Source of the DNA: Bacillota bacterium
GTDB lineage: Bacteria; Bacillota; Clostridia; Caldicoprobacterales; DTU083
Reading direction: 5' to 3'
Assembly (NCBI GenBank): GCA_029549985.1
Contig: JAKPIB010000016.1
Span: forward strand, 1-45,976
Length of the DNA stretch: 45,976 nucleotides
Below the pieces are notes generated by a model that saw only the letters and a list, made by a program, of their open reading frames with translations, was not told the origin of the DNA and made no database searches. The stretch's first letter is position 1. Each line of letters starts with the position of its first letter. The position numbers were made by a program, and so were the translations under genes. This document shows positions 8,944 through 17,780 of the stretch, in pieces.

Positions 8944-9099
8944 ATGGATACGAAACGCATCAAAAAAATGATGACCGAGTTTTCGCAGGAGTTGGGGATC
9001 GAAGCGCCAAAGGCAAACAGCATGGGGCGTAAAATGCTTTGGGCAATGGCAGGTCTTGCCGGATTCAGCTTGATCAGGGGCATGATGAAGAAAAAATAA
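8944..9099 (+). CDS. Small hydrophobic protein, 51 residues, unknown
   Basis: I do not recognise this protein. It starts MDTKRIKKMMTEFSQ, has one hydrophobic stretch (MLWAMAGLAGFSLI) near its C-terminus, and ends in a basic tail. AAAGGAGATG lies upstream of the ATG and a strong hairpin terminator directly follows the stop, so it looks like a genuine single-gene unit. It is transcribed away from the PH/ABC operon and convergent with the DUF4867-like gene. The basic N-terminus with a lone membrane-length segment suggests a membrane-associated peptide. No role can be assigned. Confidence 0.65.
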   Translation: MDTKRIKKMMTEFSQELGIEAPKANSMGRKMLWAMAGLAGFSLIRGMMKKK

Positions 9100-9103
9100 A
9101 ACC

Positions 9104-10081: not shown

Positions 10082-10507
10082 TTAGTTTTGAGCAGGATCG
10101 GCAAACTGGTACAAGTCTCCTTTGCCACCGGCAGCCTCATAATAAGCCTTTCCCTTTTCTTTTGGCGTGAACCCGTCAGGGGTTTCACGCATCAAGCCGA
10201 AGTTGGCCTCCTTTTCACCGCCCCAGGTAACCGCTGATTCATCATTGAGCAACCTGAACCAGTGTACTGTCTGCACGAATGGCATGTGCTGCTTGATTGC
10301 TTCTAGCGTGTCTGTCAAATATTTCGCCTGTTCCTTGTCGCTATCAGTATTGCCGTAGTCAGACCAGCCCATTTCAGTAAAGTATACGGGCTTGTCATGC
10401 CCCTCATACTTCTTGATGATTTCATATATCTCTATATTGTGCTGGACCCACTTGTCCGTGATATTCCCCGTCAGGTTGTAAGGGTGCCAATCATCACATC
10501 AGCACAT
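10082..10507 (-). pseudogene. C-terminal remnant of a glycoside hydrolase
   Basis: The frame translates to about 138 residues of the C-terminal part of a TIM-barrel glycoside hydrolase. It contains DDWHPYNLTGN, then KPVYFTEMGWSDYG, whose Glu sits where clan GH-A enzymes have their nucleophile. FVQTVHWFRLLND and a typical final helix ending KGKAYYEAAGG follow. The N-terminal barrel and its acid/base Glu are missing. At the 5' end an AAAGGA site and ATG-TGC-TGA run straight into the fragment, and TGATGTGATGATTGG suggests a small frame change near 10495. Most of the gene was therefore lost while its start region survived. Confidence 0.75.
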
Positions 10508-10757: not shown

Positions 10758-10789
10758 AAACAGTATCCGATATGATAGAAGGAAAGTTT

Positions 10790-11431
10790 ATGAGAGATAT
10801 ATATGTCATATTATCCGCGACACCAACTAAAATAGGCAGAGTCATCAGGGCTGTTACCAGGAGCAGCTATAACCATGCCTCCATAAGCCTGAGCCGCGAC
10901 CTTGGTGAAATGTACTCCTTTGCACGCTACAGGGCGAGCAATGCCCTGGTAGGCGGATTTATTAAGGAATTCCCTGAAAGGCTCACCCTGGGCAAGAATA
11001 AAAGCGTGAATATAAAGGTGTACAGGATACCTGTAAGCGATGAGCAGTATGAACAGGTGAGGTCCTTCATATACGGCATCAGGGACTGTGAGGAAAAGTA
11101 TATATACAACTCCCTGGCCGTGCTGGGACGTCCTTTTGACATCGGGAGCAATACCTACAAGGCTTATGTCTGCTCCGATTTCGTGCTAAGGGCCCTGATG
11201 CAGGCCGGCCTTGAGTTTGAGAGCACAAAGCTTACTCCCGGGCAGATGGAGAAGGTGCTTGAGCCTTTTCTGTACTTCAGCGGGACGTTGCACGACTATG
11301 CTCCGGCTCCGGAAAGCAGCGCGCTGGTCGAGGAGTTTTTCAGAAGATACTCCCTGCGCAGTGAACTGGCCCTGATCGCCTGGCATTTTCACATGCTTAT
11401 AAAAAGAAGCCGCAGAAGGTGCGAAGTCTGA
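10790..11431 (+). CDS. Permuted NlpC/P60 (YiiX/LRAT-like) family protein
   Basis: The protein is about 213 residues, with no signal peptide. It opens RDIYVILSATPTKIGRVIRAVTRSSYNHASISL. The His in YNHAS (residue 29) lies far before the Cys in YVCSDFV (residue 128). This His-then-Cys order marks the circularly permuted papain-like fold, whose members are thiol hydrolases or acyltransferases. Both residues are present, so it may be active. The substrate is unknown. I chose the ATG at 10790, which has AAGGAAA 6-7 nt upstream. It has its own promoter and terminator. Confidence 0.7.
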   Translation: MRDIYVILSATPTKIGRVIRAVTRSSYNHASISLSRDLGEMYSFARYRASNALVGGFIKEFPERLTLGKNKSVNIKVYRIPVSDEQYEQVRSFIYGIRDCEEKYIYNSLAVLGRPFDIGSNTYKAYVCSDFVLRALMQAGLEFESTKLTPGQMEKVLEPFLYFSGTLHDYAPAPESSALVEEFFRRYSLRSELALIAWHFHMLIKRSRRRCEV

Positions 11432-11450
11432 CTATTATATAATACCAGAC

Positions 11451-11482
11451 AGGACCTGCTATACAGGTCCTTGTTATATTTT
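11451..11482 (+). terminator. Intrinsic terminator
   Basis: An 8-bp stem AGGACCTG/CAGGTCCT with loop CTATA is followed by a T-rich tail (TGTTATATTTT), just past the stop at 11431. Confidence 0.75.
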
Positions 11483-11596
11483 AAATGCTGTTCTTCATTC
11501 GTTCAAACTCATTGTTCCTGTTAACAGCACGTCTAATGAAATCTTGAAAGAAACAACCATTCTTGAAATTTCAGTCAATTGAGCAGGCGTTCATTA

Positions 11597-11625
11597 TTGA
11601 TTTTGGATTTTATTGGTGCTATAAT
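11597..11625 (+). promoter_or_regulatory. Promoter of the TetR-MMPL cassette
   Basis: TTGATT (11597-11602), 17-bp spacer ending TGC, then TATAAT (11620-11625). Upstream are two TCTTGAAA copies (11542-11549 and 11561-11568) and a palindrome-like TTGAAATTTCAG, which might bind the regulator. Confidence 0.7.
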
Positions 11626-11659
11626 CATACTGTCATAAAAAATGAACAGGTGTTTAGCG

Positions 11660-12232
11660 ATGCAAGTACAAAAGGATGAAATGAGGAACAAAATACTCGA
11701 GGCTGCCACGGAGGAATTTCTGGTCAACGGCTACAGCCAGTCCTCCCTGCGCAATATAGCAGCCCAGGCAGGGATGACGGTCGGCAATGTCTACTCCTAC
11801 TTCAGCGGCAAGGACGACTTATTCAAAAATGTGGTATTGCCTGCACTGGAACAGATGAACATACTTTTAGGCCTTGAAATGACTGCATATTCAAGCCTTT
11901 CCTCCCCGACCCTGGCACAGATAACGGAGATAATCACCAATGCCTTTATCTGCAACAGGGCACAGTTTTTTATACTGATGAACGGCAGCGCCGGGTCCCA
12001 GTATGAGAACGTCAAGCAGGATATCACCAGGCTTATAAGCAAAAGGCTGATGCTTGAACTGTTTTCCAAAAACAGCATGAGCGACCCCCTTTTGGCCGAT
12101 GCCGTAGCGATATCCTTGCTGGAGGGCATCATTACGATATTCAATGGCTACGGCGGAGACGCAGAAAGGCTGAAATACCTGCTAAAGGAATTCCTCTTCA
12201 TAGTTCTTGGGAACCTGGCTGACGATATCTAA
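11660..12232 (+). CDS. TetR/AcrR family transcriptional regulator
   Basis: The 190-residue regulator has a classic N-terminal helix-turn-helix: KILEAATEEFLVNGYSQSSL, then IAAQAGMTVGNVYSYFSGKDDLF. An all-alpha ligand-binding domain follows. It is the first gene of a four-gene plus-strand run, 21 nt before the MMPL exporter, so it very likely represses its own operon and responds to an exported compound. I chose the ATG at 11660 for the AGGTG site 7 nt before it; the ATG at 11642 has no ribosome site and sits only 17 nt after the -10. Confidence 0.9.
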   Translation: MQVQKDEMRNKILEAATEEFLVNGYSQSSLRNIAAQAGMTVGNVYSYFSGKDDLFKNVVLPALEQMNILLGLEMTAYSSLSSPTLAQITEIITNAFICNRAQFFILMNGSAGSQYENVKQDITRLISKRLMLELFSKNSMSDPLLADAVAISLLEGIITIFNGYGGDAERLKYLLKEFLFIVLGNLADDI

Positions 12233-12253
12233 AGCCATCTGGAGGTAATCAAG

Positions 12254-14323
12254 GTGAAAAGGTTCTTTTCACTTATCTGTCGCCGCAGGGCAGTAGTTTG
12301 CGTCATATTTGCTGCAGCGGTAGTTCTGAGCCTGCTGCTCCTGCCGGGAGTATCCGTAAATTACAACCTGGCCGACTACCTGCCCGACCACTCCGATACA
12401 AAAAGGGCCATCAAGGTTCTGGAGCAGGAGTTCAGCTACCCGGGGACTGTCTATGTGATGCTCGAGGACCGCATGATACCGGAGATACTTGAGACAAAGC
12501 GGGCCCTATCCGGCATCGACGGAGTCCGTTCCGTGCTCTGGCTTGATGACCTTTATGACATAACCCAGCCCTTGAGCCAGATCCCGGAGCCAGCCCTTGA
12601 GAACTGGTACAAGGATGGGGCTGCGCTCTTGCAGGTGGAGTTTGAAGAGAACGACTACAGTGAGAAGACCACTCATGCTATCAAAGAAATAAGGGCTCTC
12701 CTTGGAGACGAGGTTGCGATCAGCGGCCCGGCAGAAAGCAGCAGGTACATGAAAAGCACCCTGGCTGAAGAGATTCTCAGGATCATGCTGATCGTTGTGC
12801 CCCTCTGCCTGCTGATCCTTGTGCTGGCCTCCTCCTCCTGGGTAGAGCCCTTCATCTACCTTGGTATAATTGGCGTTTCCATAGCCATAAACATGGGCAC
12901 CAACGCCTTTTTCAAAAACGTATCCTTTATAACCCATGCCATTTCCGCAGTGCTCCAGCTCGCCATTTCAATGGACTATTCCATATTTCTCATGCACCGT
13001 TACCTTGAAGAGCGCAAGCGCGGCCTGGATGTCATATCCGCAGTAGTCAACGCCGCCCACCAGGCCCTGTCATCCATTGCTGCCAGCGCAGCAACTACGA
13101 TCGCAGGATTTCTTGCCCTCCTCTTCATGAAGTATGGGATAGGCGCAGATATAGGCATAGTACTGGCAAAGGGCATACTCTTGAGCTTCATCACAGTAGT
13201 TGTCCTAATGCCGGTGATGATCATCTATATGAGCAGGATCATTGAAAAAACAAGCCACAAGGTGTTCACACCAAACCTTGAAAGACTGGCCAGGGGGGTT
13301 ATTAAGCTCCGGTATCTGATCATAGCTGTCGTGCTCCTGGTCGCAATACCCTCATACCTGGCCCAGCAAAGCAACCATTTCATATACGGTGAAACAACAG
13401 AAGGAGATACAGACAGCAGGACCATGCAGGATACAAGGAGGATCGAGGAGCGCTTTGGTACCAACAACATAGTCCTCCTGCTTGTGCCATCGGGAGATAT
13501 AGCAAGGGAGATCGCACTGAGCGAGGAGATCGAGGCCCTGGAGTTTGTAAACAGTGTCCATGGGCTGGTCACCCTGGCCGACCCTTCTATACCCAGGGAA
13601 TTCCTGCCCCAGTCTGTGGTGGAAGCCTTTGCAACGGAAAACTACAGCAGGTTCATAATAAACCTGAATGTAAAGGGCGAGGCGCCGGAGACCTTCGCGG
13701 CCATAGAAAGGCTTAAGGAAACGACCCAGAAGCATTTCCCTGACAAATGGCTGATCGGTGGCAACACACCGGCGGTCGCCGATATAAAGTCTACCGTGGA
13801 CAGCGATATTTTCATGGTGAATATGTTCTCGATCGTTGCCGTAGCCCTTATCATAATGCTGACCTTCCGCTCGTTCTCCCTGCCGGTGATCCTGGTAAGT
13901 GCCATCGAGGCATCCGTATGGATCAACATGGGCATACCTTACTTTACCGGAAGCAGCCTTGTATTCATAGGGTATCTGGTGGTCAGCTCCCTGCAGCTGG
14001 GTGCAACCATCGACTATGCCATACTCATCACAAACAGATACATGGAGTTCAGGACAACCATGTCTCCTGCAGATGCAGCCATGTCCGCTGTCAAGACCGC
14101 AGGGAACTCCGTAATTGTATCTGCCCTCATCCTGATGACTGCAGGCTTTGCCGAGGGTGCGGTATCCAGCATAAGCTCGATCAGTGAAATAGGCGTCCTG
14201 CTGGGCAGGGGTGCCCTTTTGAGCGGCCTGATCGTGCTTACCCTCCTCCCCTCCCTCCTCATCCTGCTGGATGGGGTCATACACAGAACCACGCTTTTGA
14301 AAAAGAATATAACAAAGGCCTGA
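12254..14323 (+). CDS. MMPL/RND family exporter (HAE3-like)
   Basis: This proton-driven membrane exporter has 689 residues in two similar halves. Each half is one helix, a large extracytoplasmic loop and five more helices. The Asp-Tyr pairs typical of MmpL proton relays are present in both halves: SMDYSIFLMHRY (Asp 241) and TIDYAILITNRY (Asp 587). GTG at 12254 follows GGAGG by 8 nt. The cassette carries no outer membrane channel, which fits a Gram-positive host. The next gene encodes a secreted X-X-G-repeat protein that may be its extracellular partner. Likely substrates are lipids, lipoglycans or amphiphiles; this is inference from family and neighbours. Confidence 0.88.
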   Translation: MKRFFSLICRRRAVVCVIFAAAVVLSLLLLPGVSVNYNLADYLPDHSDTKRAIKVLEQEFSYPGTVYVMLEDRMIPEILETKRALSGIDGVRSVLWLDDLYDITQPLSQIPEPALENWYKDGAALLQVEFEENDYSEKTTHAIKEIRALLGDEVAISGPAESSRYMKSTLAEEILRIMLIVVPLCLLILVLASSSWVEPFIYLGIIGVSIAINMGTNAFFKNVSFITHAISAVLQLAISMDYSIFLMHRYLEERKRGLDVISAVVNAAHQALSSIAASAATTIAGFLALLFMKYGIGADIGIVLAKGILLSFITVVVLMPVMIIYMSRIIEKTSHKVFTPNLERLARGVIKLRYLIIAVVLLVAIPSYLAQQSNHFIYGETTEGDTDSRTMQDTRRIEERFGTNNIVLLLVPSGDIAREIALSEEIEALEFVNSVHGLVTLADPSIPREFLPQSVVEAFATENYSRFIINLNVKGEAPETFAAIERLKETTQKHFPDKWLIGGNTPAVADIKSTVDSDIFMVNMFSIVAVALIIMLTFRSFSLPVILVSAIEASVWINMGIPYFTGSSLVFIGYLVVSSLQLGATIDYAILITNRYMEFRTTMSPADAAMSAVKTAGNSVIVSALILMTAGFAEGAVSSISSISEIGVLLGRGALLSGLIVLTLLPSLLILLDGVIHRTTLLKKNITKA

Positions 14324-14386
14324 TATATAACTTTTCAGCCACCTTGACTTAACAGGGTGTAGAGCCAATGAAAGGAGTTGATGATC

Positions 14387-15952
14387 ATGAAAAAAGTCCT
14401 GCCTGTATTGCTGGCAGCCGTTTTAAGCCTTATGCCGCTAACCCTTTCTGCATCAGGCCAGACCTTGTCCGGACAGGCTTTCATCAAGCAGGAGCTTTCC
14501 AAGGATGAGACCGTCTATGCCAATCTCGGCTATGATGGCTCCGTGAAGGAAATATATGTAGTGAACCGGATAAACACTCCGGAGGCCGGTCTGTATGAGG
14601 ATTTCGGCCTCTATGAAACGATAGTGAACCTGACTAACAGCATCCAGCCCGTTATTACGGATGAGAGCATCCAGTGGCAGCTCCCGAAGGACCCCAGGGG
14701 CTTCTATTACCAGGGCAAGCTGTACGAGGCCCAGCTCCCATTTCTGATCGATATAAAATACATGCTCGACGGCAGGGAAATGCCCGCAAGGGCCATAGCA
14801 GGCAAGTCCGGGGATATAAGACTCAGGTTCACCGTGACGCCGAACCCTGATGCCGCAGCCTATTTCAAAGAGAATTTCATGCTCCAGCTCCAGATCCCCT
14901 TGAGCCTTGATACCTGCTCCGGGATAAAGGCTCCGGGTTCGTCGATGGTGATAGCGGGCAGGACAGCCACCCTGGCCTATATGGTCCTGCCGGGGACGAT
15001 TGCGGAATTTGAAATATCCTTCTACTCCCCGTATTTTGAGCTCGGATCCATAAGCATGACAGGCATGCCCCTGAATTTGAACAGCTATATGGACAATTTC
15101 ATAGATATGGAGGAGATCAGATCCGGGATAACCCAGCTTTCAGAAGGCGCCGGCCGGCTGGCAGACGGTACGGTAAGGCTCAGGGACGGGCTCAAGGAGC
15201 TCTCCTCAGGCTTGCAGCAGGTCTCGGCCGGTGCAGGGCAGCTTGACGACTCTATGCCGGAGTTTCAGGACGGGATAAAGAAATATACAGGCGGTGTAGA
15301 CGAGCTGGCCAAGGCTGCTGCAGAAATATCAGATAACCTGGAGCTACTGGCCAGGGAAGGAGAAAGGCTCAAGGACGGCTTCAACCAGATCTATGCAGGG
15401 ATAACCATGATAACCGACCCTGTTTCCCAGCTTCCCCTCCTGCCCGAGAGCATAAAAAGCAGGATACTGGAGTTCCAGTCCCAGCTGGGTGAATATAAGG
15501 ACGGGCTCAGCCAGTATATAGACGGAGTGGGGATGATCTCGGACGGCATGAAGGAGTTTACGGCAGGCATGTCGAAATTAGCCTCAAGCAATCAGGAGCT
15601 GCTGGGCGGGCTTGCTTTGATCGTGGACGGCATGGGAGAGCTGGCCAAGGGCCTGGAAAAAACCGCAAAGGAAGTCAAAAAGCTTCCCGGAGAGGTCCAG
15701 AAGCTGGTTGACGGGCAAAAGGAGCTCAAAAGCGGTATCGATAAGGCCAGGACCATATTTGATGAGCTGGGCGGGGAGGAGGCTGAAAAGCCTGAACCGG
15801 TCTCATTTGTATCGGACCGGGTGAAGCCCAATTCGGTGCAGTTTATCCTTAAGACACCTGAGCTAAAGCCTGACAGCGAAAAGAATAACAATACAAGGCC
15901 GGAAGAGGACCAGAAAAGCTTCTGGCAGAGATTGAAGGAGTTGTTCACTTGA
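14387..15952 (+). CDS. Secreted X-X-G-repeat (YhgE/Pip-like repeat) protein
   Basis: The protein is about 521 residues with a clear signal peptide (KKVLPVLLAAVLSLMPLTLSASG). A beta-rich globular region runs to about residue 240. A long helical part follows with many heptad-like repeats of the form (L/I)xxGxxx(L), for example QLSEGAGRLADGTVRLRDGL and GLQQVSAGAGQLDDSM, as in X-X-G repeats of YhgE/Pip-type and MMPL-associated proteins. The last 60 residues are charged and have no anchor. AAAGGAG is 9 nt before the ATG at 14387. The gene lies between the exporter and a coupled GH5 gene. A role as extracellular partner of the exporter is inferred. Confidence 0.75.
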   Translation: MKKVLPVLLAAVLSLMPLTLSASGQTLSGQAFIKQELSKDETVYANLGYDGSVKEIYVVNRINTPEAGLYEDFGLYETIVNLTNSIQPVITDESIQWQLPKDPRGFYYQGKLYEAQLPFLIDIKYMLDGREMPARAIAGKSGDIRLRFTVTPNPDAAAYFKENFMLQLQIPLSLDTCSGIKAPGSSMVIAGRTATLAYMVLPGTIAEFEISFYSPYFELGSISMTGMPLNLNSYMDNFIDMEEIRSGITQLSEGAGRLADGTVRLRDGLKELSSGLQQVSAGAGQLDDSMPEFQDGIKKYTGGVDELAKAAAEISDNLELLAREGERLKDGFNQIYAGITMITDPVSQLPLLPESIKSRILEFQSQLGEYKDGLSQYIDGVGMISDGMKEFTAGMSKLASSNQELLGGLALIVDGMGELAKGLEKTAKEVKKLPGEVQKLVDGQKELKSGIDKARTIFDELGGEEAEKPEPVSFVSDRVKPNSVQFILKTPELKPDSEKNNNTRPEEDQKSFWQRLKELFT

Positions 15953-16956
15953 TGGTAAAGGTATCGGACAGTTCACCCCTGGATAAGGTAAGAGTCAAAG
16001 GCGGCGATTTCTACGCAGGAGGCAAGAAGCTCTGGATCAATGGCACCAACACGCCCTGGAACAGCTGGAACGACTTTGGCGGCAGCTATGATGAGAAGTG
16101 GTGGGATGAGCATTTTGCCCTGCTCCATGCCCACGGCATAAATGCTGTAAGGATATGGATCTCCTGCGACGGCACGGTCGGCATAAACATAGATGATAAC
16201 GGCCTTGTGACCGGCGTGACTGACAAATACTGGTCTGACCTGGATTCGCTCTTTTCTCTGGCTCAAAAGCACCGGCTCTACATCATGGCTACGACCATGT
16301 CCTTTGACCACTGCAAGTATGCCCATGGCAGGTATAAAAGCTGGAGAAACATGATAAAAAGCGAAAAGGCAGTGGACAGCTATATAGAAAACTATCTCCT
16401 GCCTTTGGTTGAACGGTATAAGGGCAACACGGCCCTTTGGTCGATCGACCTTTGCAACGAGCCTGACTGGATAAATGAGAACAAGGAGTGCGGCGAGATC
16501 CCCTGGGATCTCCTTACCAGGCTCTTTGCCAAATCGACCGCTGCCATACACAAGACAAGCGACATCCTGGTCACGGTAGGCATAGCGGTCATAAAAAACA
16601 ATAAATATGTGAATGATGGTTCCATGCTGGCCGCCCTCAATGACAGGGCAGCCTGCCTGGACTTCTATTCCCCCCATCACTATCCCTGGATGATCCCCCA
16701 CTTTGGCATACCCTTTTATACCACACCCGAAAAATACGGGGTAGAGCCAGGAAAGCCTGTAGTGATTGCCGAGTGTCCGCCCCTGGGCACGCCGGGCAGG
16801 TCGCTCACCGAGGACTATGTATCAGCCTTTGAAAACGGCTGGCATGGCATCATGCCCTGGACCTCCAACGGTGTTGATACATGCGGCAGCCTTGAAGATA
16901 TGAAGGAGACCCTGAAGCTGATGCTGGAAAACCACCGGGATGTGATACTCCCCTGA
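15952..16956 (+). CDS. GH5-like glycoside hydrolase, apparently intracellular
   Basis: This 334-residue TIM-barrel hydrolase of clan GH-A is probably an endo-mannanase or cellulase-like family 5 protein. It has NGTNTPWNSWNDFGG near the N-terminus, GINAVRIWI, acid/base Glu in IDLCNEPDW (about residue 170), FYSPHHYPW, nucleophile Glu in VIAECPP (about residue 274) and MPWTSNG. Both catalytic acids are present. There is no signal peptide, unusual for a polymer-degrading enzyme, so the substrate may be an intracellular glycan or glycolipid. The ATG overlaps the preceding stop (TGATG) with AAGGAG upstream, implying translational coupling to the repeat-protein gene. Confidence 0.82.
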   Translation: MVKVSDSSPLDKVRVKGGDFYAGGKKLWINGTNTPWNSWNDFGGSYDEKWWDEHFALLHAHGINAVRIWISCDGTVGINIDDNGLVTGVTDKYWSDLDSLFSLAQKHRLYIMATTMSFDHCKYAHGRYKSWRNMIKSEKAVDSYIENYLLPLVERYKGNTALWSIDLCNEPDWINENKECGEIPWDLLTRLFAKSTAAIHKTSDILVTVGIAVIKNNKYVNDGSMLAALNDRAACLDFYSPHHYPWMIPHFGIPFYTTPEKYGVEPGKPVVIAECPPLGTPGRSLTEDYVSAFENGWHGIMPWTSNGVDTCGSLEDMKETLKLMLENHRDVILP

Positions 16957-16986: not shown

Positions 16987-17024
16987 GGCATGGTGGATCA
17001 CCTCTTTAGCTGGTTCACCATGCC
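16987..17024. repeat. 9-bp inverted repeat across the flgG stop
   Basis: GGCATGGTG (16987-16995) and CACCATGCC (17016-17024) are perfect complements with a 20-nt loop that holds the flgG stop codon. Neither strand has a T-run, so it is not a standard terminator. It sits where the plus-strand cassette and the flagellar operon converge. Confidence 0.5.
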
Positions 17025-17780
17025 CCACATCTCATCTGCAGCCGTTATGCTCTTTGTATTGAGTTCATAGGCCCGCTGGGTTGCGAGCATGTTTACGAGC
17101 TCTTCCGTCAAATCCACATTGGACTCTTCCAGAAAACCCTGCCGGATAATGCCAAACCCCTCAGTATCCAGATTTGAAGCCACTTCAGTCCCGTTTCGGA
17201 CTGCGAACATGTTACCTCCGATCGCTGTCAGGCTTCCCTTGTCTGCCACACTGAAAAGCCGTATCCTTCCCAGGACTACGTTCACCCCATCTTTATTGGC
17301 GGTAACAAGGCCATCTCCGCTGATGGTGACATCCTCATCATTATATTGGCTGAGCGGAGCATAGGCATCCATTACTACATAGTAGCCATGGCTGTCTGTG
17401 AGCCTTCCCTCGGCATCTACCCTGAAAGCTCCGTCCCGCGTGAGGTAGAAGCCTCCGTTGCCGTCAACCAGACCAAAAAAGCCTTCTCCGTCTATGGCCA
17501 GGTCATATGTATTGTGTGTTTCCTTGAGTATCCCGGGTTCAAAGCTTCTGGCCAAATCCTTCGCCCTGCTGCCGGTGCCGATCTCAAGCTGCCTTTGCCT
17601 TGCTTCCTCCGTCTGGGGCACGCCACGGTCTGCTAACCTGTCATACACAAGATCCTCGAACTCGACCCTTTGGCTTTTGTACCCTGTGGTCTGTGCATTG
17701 GCTATGTTATTGGCTATTGAGTCCATCCTCCGTTGCATGGCGTCCATACTGGTTCTTCCCGTATGCAGGATTTTGAACAT
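16998..17780 (-). CDS. flgG: Flagellar basal-body rod protein FlgG type
   Basis: This is an extracytoplasmic axial protein of the distal rod, exported by the flagellar secretion system. The 260 residues have the N-terminal axial motif SMDAMQRRMDSIANNIANAQTTGYK, mid-domain DLAIDGEGFFGLVDGNGGFYLTRDGAFRVD, and C-terminal GFLEESNVDLTEELVNMLATQRAYELNTKSITAADEM. It is the last gene of the long flagellar operon, 15 nt after flgF. AGGAGG precedes the ATG. FlgF and FlgG are close paralogs in Clostridia, so the exact name rests on order and the strong FlgG-like C-terminus. Confidence 0.85.
   Translation of the reverse strand: MFKILHTGRTSMDAMQRRMDSIANNIANAQTTGYKSQRVEFEDLVYDRLADRGVPQTEEARQRQLEIGTGSRAKDLARSFEPGILKETHNTYDLAIDGEGFFGLVDGNGGFYLTRDGAFRVDAEGRLTDSHGYYVVMDAYAPLSQYNDEDVTISGDGLVTANKDGVNVVLGRIRLFSVADKGSLTAIGGNMFAVRNGTEVASNLDTEGFGIIRQGFLEESNVDLTEELVNMLATQRAYELNTKSITAADEMWGMVNQLKR

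Follow-up and report, generated by a model that had tools for sequence, protein, structure and literature searches.

A gene order in which a transcriptional regulator, a membrane exporter, a secreted repeat protein and a glycoside hydrolase follow one another on one strand raises the question of whether the four proteins work as one system or whether the last gene travels with an exporter that functions without it. Such a locus is found in the window, meaning here the whole analysed stretch of 45,976 nucleotides from a Bacillota bacterium (assembly GCA_029549985.1, contig JAKPIB010000016.1). The preliminary description of this DNA had suggested that the locus makes, trims and exports a glycolipid or cell-envelope glycan as a self-contained system under TetR control. 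The features on which the following analysis is based are:

11580–11593, no strand assigned: putative TetR operator O1, TGAGCAGGCGTTCA, just 5' of the -35 element, with 2 mismatches to TGAACAGSTGTTYA
11597–11625, plus strand: sigma-70-like promoter, TTGATT-17-TATAAT with an extended TG; TATAAT invariant in three genomes
11643–11656, no strand assigned: putative TetR operator O2, TGAACAGGTGTTTA; similar sequence at the equal position in L001, L036, L061 and L062
11660–12232, plus strand: TetR-family regulator (TetR; PF00440 TetR_N, 1.9e-13), with a 66% ortholog in genome G002
12254–14323, plus strand: MMPL/RND-type exporter of 689 aa (MMPL; PF03176, 9.4e-54)
14387–15952, plus strand: exported XXXLXXG protein (XXG; TIGR03057, 2e-17)
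15952–16956, plus strand: GH5 hydrolase of 334 aa (GH5; PF00150, 2.3e-7)

Layout and probable control of the likely four-gene operon

In the ORF reading, TetR, MMPL, XXG and GH5 are all encoded on the plus strand in this order, with spacings of 21, 63 and -1 nt, and the ORFs are confirmed where the preliminary description had placed them. The TetR end at 12232 is separated by 21 nt from the MMPL GTG start at 12254, 63 nt lie between the MMPL end at 14323 and the XXG ATG at 14387, and the GH5 ATG at 15952 overlaps the XXG stop at 15950–15952 in a TGATG (-1). A terminator-like hairpin at 11451–11471 sets the operon apart from the upstream gene, while GH5 is followed on its 3' side by a convergent gene (16998–17780, minus strand), named from its translation as flagellar basal-body rod-type. 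One promoter shared by all four genes had also been proposed; its TATAAT is conserved in relatives, and from the spacing the four genes probably form one operon with a single transcript. The identical four-gene order and the identical overlap are present in the sister species G001 at a dS of about 0.4–0.5, and the arrangement is therefore no assembly artefact. Comparing the window genome with G001, dN/dS is 0.05–0.14 for each of the four genes, all of which are therefore under purifying selection. That the XXG-GH5 overlap has been kept between two species at this distance may indicate that the coupling is useful.

Taken alone, the promoter at 11597–11625 is not significant, as a promoter scan found 7 sites against 6.8 expected by chance. 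In the alignment of the upstream regions, its TATAAT at 11620–11625 and the flanking palindromes are conserved in two relatives, and the two palindromes bracket the promoter in three genomes. The O1 position is occupied by the perfect palindrome TGAACAGCTGTTCA in G002 (L036) and by TAAACAGGTGTTCA in L001, and in another family (L061, L062) an O2-like TAAACAGGGGTTTA precedes the gene for a TetR of 31% identity. Among the matches listed for the window genome (G000), O2 is the sole site fitting the operator pattern with zero mismatches. A regulon search with this pattern in the window genome gave no clear second target; with 1–2 mismatches, the same genome holds 103 sites against 28 for a reversed-pattern control, an excess that may reflect either regulation or sequence bias.

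The TetR ORF can be read from ATG 11642 or ATG 11660. The latter is the more likely start, because the relative in L061 begins at the corresponding site and because the palindrome TGAACAGGTGTTTA covers 11643–11656. Besides the ortholog in G002, TetR relatives of about 31% identity are found in G099 and G072. TetR combines a TetR_N domain with conserved palindromes at 11580 and 11643 by its own promoter, as expected of an autoregulator; autoregulation is likely, and the TetR control assumed in the preliminary description is probable. TetR would bind the two palindromes flanking the promoter and repress the operon there until released by a small ligand.

The predicted exporter, its proposed secreted partner and their distribution

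MMPL matches PF03176 with 183 bits (gathering cutoff 20.5), and its role as an exporter, already suggested in the preliminary description, is predicted from its sequence. D241-Y242 and D587-Y588 are conserved without exception among the 36 sequences compared. We take these Asp-Tyr pairs to be a proton relay like that of MmpL3, and their presence in both transmembrane halves would fit proton-driven transport. Among its relatives, structures have been solved for MmpL4, MmpL5 and MmpL3, the similarity being confined to parts of the protein. In this picture, the proton gradient, acting through the two pairs, would power MMPL in extracting from the membrane a substrate that is amphiphilic or hydrophobic.

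XXG matches TIGR03057 with 62.5 bits (cutoff 18.6) and, as had been described, is a secreted X-X-G protein with helical repeats, its signal peptide being recognised by eye. The signal peptide is followed by a beta domain (about residues 32–228), helical repeats (about 231–461) and a conserved tail; this order is taken from a low-confidence AlphaFold2 model (mean pLDDT 48.5, from 2 sequences) that is read for layout only. The L..G periodicity in the helices is above chance, with a value of 16 where shuffled sequences average 8.2, and 0 of 2000 shuffles exceeded 16. At the C-terminus, the motif SFxS...VQF(I/V)(M/L)(K/R)T and a terminal amphipathic helix (FWxRLLxLF) are common to many families. 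The tail is possibly a docking or membrane element. For MmpL5, use of a coiled-coil tube in the periplasm is reported (PMC12501195), and by analogy it is proposed that XXG, with its beta domain, helical-repeat stalk and amphipathic tail, could serve as the extracytoplasmic partner of the MMPL pump.

The two families are widespread, with MMPL matches in 54 and XXG matches in 41 of the 196 sampled genomes of the class. The neighbourhoods of 40 MMPL loci were inspected, 34 of which encode a short MMPL (about 690 aa) and 6 a long one (806–839 aa). An XXG gene is found directly 3' of the short MMPL gene and on the same strand in 34/34 loci, with gaps of about -38 to 172 nt as judged by mechanical ORF starts. 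Often a regulator-sized gene, either co-directional or divergent, is located 5' of the pair; those checked encode TetR (L041, L061 and L038) or MarR (L047). The genes 3' of XXG vary by locus and include those for a histidine phosphatase, a hydantoinase and others. The preliminary description had proposed a neighbourhood search for MMPL, X-X-G and GH5 in other genomes, and this search returned no case outside the window genus: a GH5 relative is beside 0 of the 34 other short-MMPL/XXG pairs (BLAST on the fetched stretches). MMPL, XXG and GH5 are together in one genus only and do not form a unit conserved across lineages. A plasmid search gave no match. A literature search for MMPL and XXG pairs found, among the papers it covered, no functional study of the pair, and the function of these pairs in Firmicutes appears to be largely uncharacterised. 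The long proteins (L050–L055) represent a second MMPL subfamily of 806–839 aa, and several of these loci then encode a protein of about 800–1200 aa.

The GH5 hydrolase and the YiiX-ung interval

GH5 matches PF00150 with 31 bits (gathering cutoff 23.5). Three orthologs all retain the acid/base E170 (in NEP) and the nucleophile E274 (in IAE), and the enzyme shows no evident signal peptide. The best sequence matches in the PDB are 5y6t, 3vup, 2c0h and 4oou; these are also the top Foldseek matches, aligned at about 20% identity, of a weak AlphaFold model that gives fold hints only (mean pLDDT 52.7, from 3 sequences). With subfamilies as defined in PMC3526467, these best PDB matches are GH5_10-type beta-1,4-mannanases, and GH5 may belong to GH5_10. 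The enzyme is probably an intracellular, GH5_10-like hydrolase acting on beta-mannan-type oligosaccharides, as far as a substrate can be read from sequence. Its role need not equal that of the characterised GH5_10/17 enzymes, because these are all reported as extracellular (PMC3526467) and GH5 is without an evident signal peptide.

Relatives of GH5 (E<=1e-20) are rare, being found in 3 of 391 sampled genomes of the class (the window genome, G006 and G108) and, in a draw of 398 genomes from the phylum, in the window genome only. The relative in G108 (L057:4318-6284) shows a TGA/frame break followed by a CBM35 module and lies in a polysaccharidase context. GH5 adjoins an MMPL/XXG pair only in the window genus, that is, in the window genome and in G001 (90% identical). 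The preliminary description had named a pairing confined to this strain, which would imply chance placement, as a refutation of its proposal; the pairing is indeed restricted, but at the level of the genus rather than the strain.

Elsewhere in the family, GH5 and the trio of TetR, MMPL and XXG are found apart. In G006, where the trio is absent from the locus, the GH5 ortholog (63%) comes with a leader of its own. An arabinofuranosidase gene of GH51 type flanks it on one side and ung on the other, and GH10, GH43 and GH94 genes come next. In G002, the trio (66/57/43% identical) is found downstream of the YiiX gene with a GH78-type rhamnosidase gene between, and GH5 is absent from this locus, while in G003 the YiiX-ung interval contains an amidase only. 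In the window, the gene at 10772–11431, which has no Pfam match, is presumably YiiX-like. In the window genome, contig C34 carries ung and the hydantoinase gene, with the GH10/GH43/GH94 group still near ung, and the locus of this genome has therefore been split after GH5. The interval between YiiX and ung is a variable slot, and among the genomes seen GH5 meets the trio there only in the window genus. Either the family ancestor had GH5 as well as the trio and losses followed, or the two met later.

A gain of GH5 by the window strain alone is ruled out, as the sister species shares the gene and G006 carries an ortholog in the corresponding interval between YiiX and ung. Listed by genus, the contents of the slot (window 10772–11431; L001, L002, L036 and L082) are an amidase, GH51 with GH5, GH78 with the trio, and the trio with GH5. 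At the rearrangement breakpoint that separates GH5 from ung in the window genome (16957–17000; L084), flagellar rod-type genes come after GH5, and ung is accompanied by FliM/FliN-type genes on C34. Further upstream, a truncated ORF at 10082–10372 (minus strand; no Pfam match) resembles by eye the end of a glycoside hydrolase and is a possible remnant, and a small plus-strand ORF of about 50 aa at 8945–9100 has a good ribosome-binding site (MDTKRIKKMMTEF...).

Interpretation and comparison with known systems

The locus is very probably a widespread TetR-MMPL-XXG exporter module to which a genus-specific passenger, GH5, has been added. The passenger would have come from, or been shared with, the neighbouring hemicellulose-utilisation cluster and, joined to the operon end by TGATG in the window genus, it probably shares the operon transcript and is coupled in translation, while standing outside the exporter mechanism. 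For GH5 and the trio, shared regulation is possible and a shared mechanism unlikely; a link of the exporter substrate to mannosylated material is conceivable. Compatible with this explanation, the trio may mainly be an efflux pump for drugs or toxic amphiphiles rather than an exporter of envelope lipids. TetR control and the similarity to MmpL4/5 point this way, as does the export of bedaquiline and siderophores by MmpS5L5 (PMC12501195), yet MMPL relatives move lipids too, and such a role is quite possible while still somewhat doubtful.

As a refinement of the passenger explanation, and not exclusive with it, it could be speculated that GH5 was captured for its regulation. The presence of mannan oligosaccharides would then be signalled by the growth state or by the ligand of TetR, such as amphiphiles of plant origin released together with hemicellulose, giving a link in timing and not in mechanism. 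The coupling kept across two species, the hemicellulase genes of the family and the GH78 rhamnosidase adjoining the trio in G002 are consistent with this idea; however, that GH78 gene is on the opposite strand and deletion of the spacer between the genes alone would produce the same arrangement, leaving regulatory capture rather unlikely.

The make-trim-export system of the preliminary description is not upheld, as the locus has no biosynthetic gene and GH5 is mannanase-like, with an ortholog in a hemicellulase cluster that lacks the trio. Put as one functional system of four genes, in which GH5 trims a lipid-linked or mannosylated glycan exported by the MMPL/XXG pair, this proposal could draw on the probable translational coupling, which two species retain while purifying selection acts on the genes, and on the glycolipid export by mycobacterial MMPL relatives (PMC12507525). 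It is nonetheless very improbable, given that GH5 and the trio occur apart within the same family (G006, G002), that the 34 other pairs lack a GH5 relative, that the GH5 ortholog sits among hemicellulases and that the cassette has neither a glycosyltransferase nor a lipid-synthesis gene. Even less probable is a genus-specific variant in which the pump exports a beta-mannose-containing glycolipid, which GH5, as a coupled enzyme of the cytoplasm, would edit or recycle.

With GH5 read as a passenger, the locus illustrates that an operon gene coupled by TGATG can be lineage-specific. For the MMPL/XXG pair itself, both the operator-like sites and the XXG tail are conserved and offer handles on function.

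Among known systems, the mycobacterial MmpS5-MmpL5 and MmpS4-MmpL4 likewise combine an MMPL-family exporter with an operon partner under the control of a repressor. In the window locus, by contrast, the helical element belongs to XXG, an exported protein of its own; an MmpS-like gene was not found in the window operon, and sequence similarity extends to parts only. The closest counterparts are the Firmicute MMPL and XXXLXXG (TIGR03057) pairs, which have the same gene order, families and upstream regulator; the window locus is one of them, with an extra downstream GH5. This enzyme resembles the GH5_10 and GH5_17 endo-beta-1,4-mannanases (2c0h, 5y6t, 3vup and 4oou), its best sequence and fold matches, in the catalytic Glu pair, whereas neither a signal peptide nor a binding module is evident in it. 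Finally, intracellular hemicellulose-utilisation clusters (GH51/GH10/GH43/GH94) correspond to the surroundings of the G006 ortholog of GH5 and to the GH10/GH43/GH94 genes on C34, while in the window genus GH5 is instead joined to the exporter operon.
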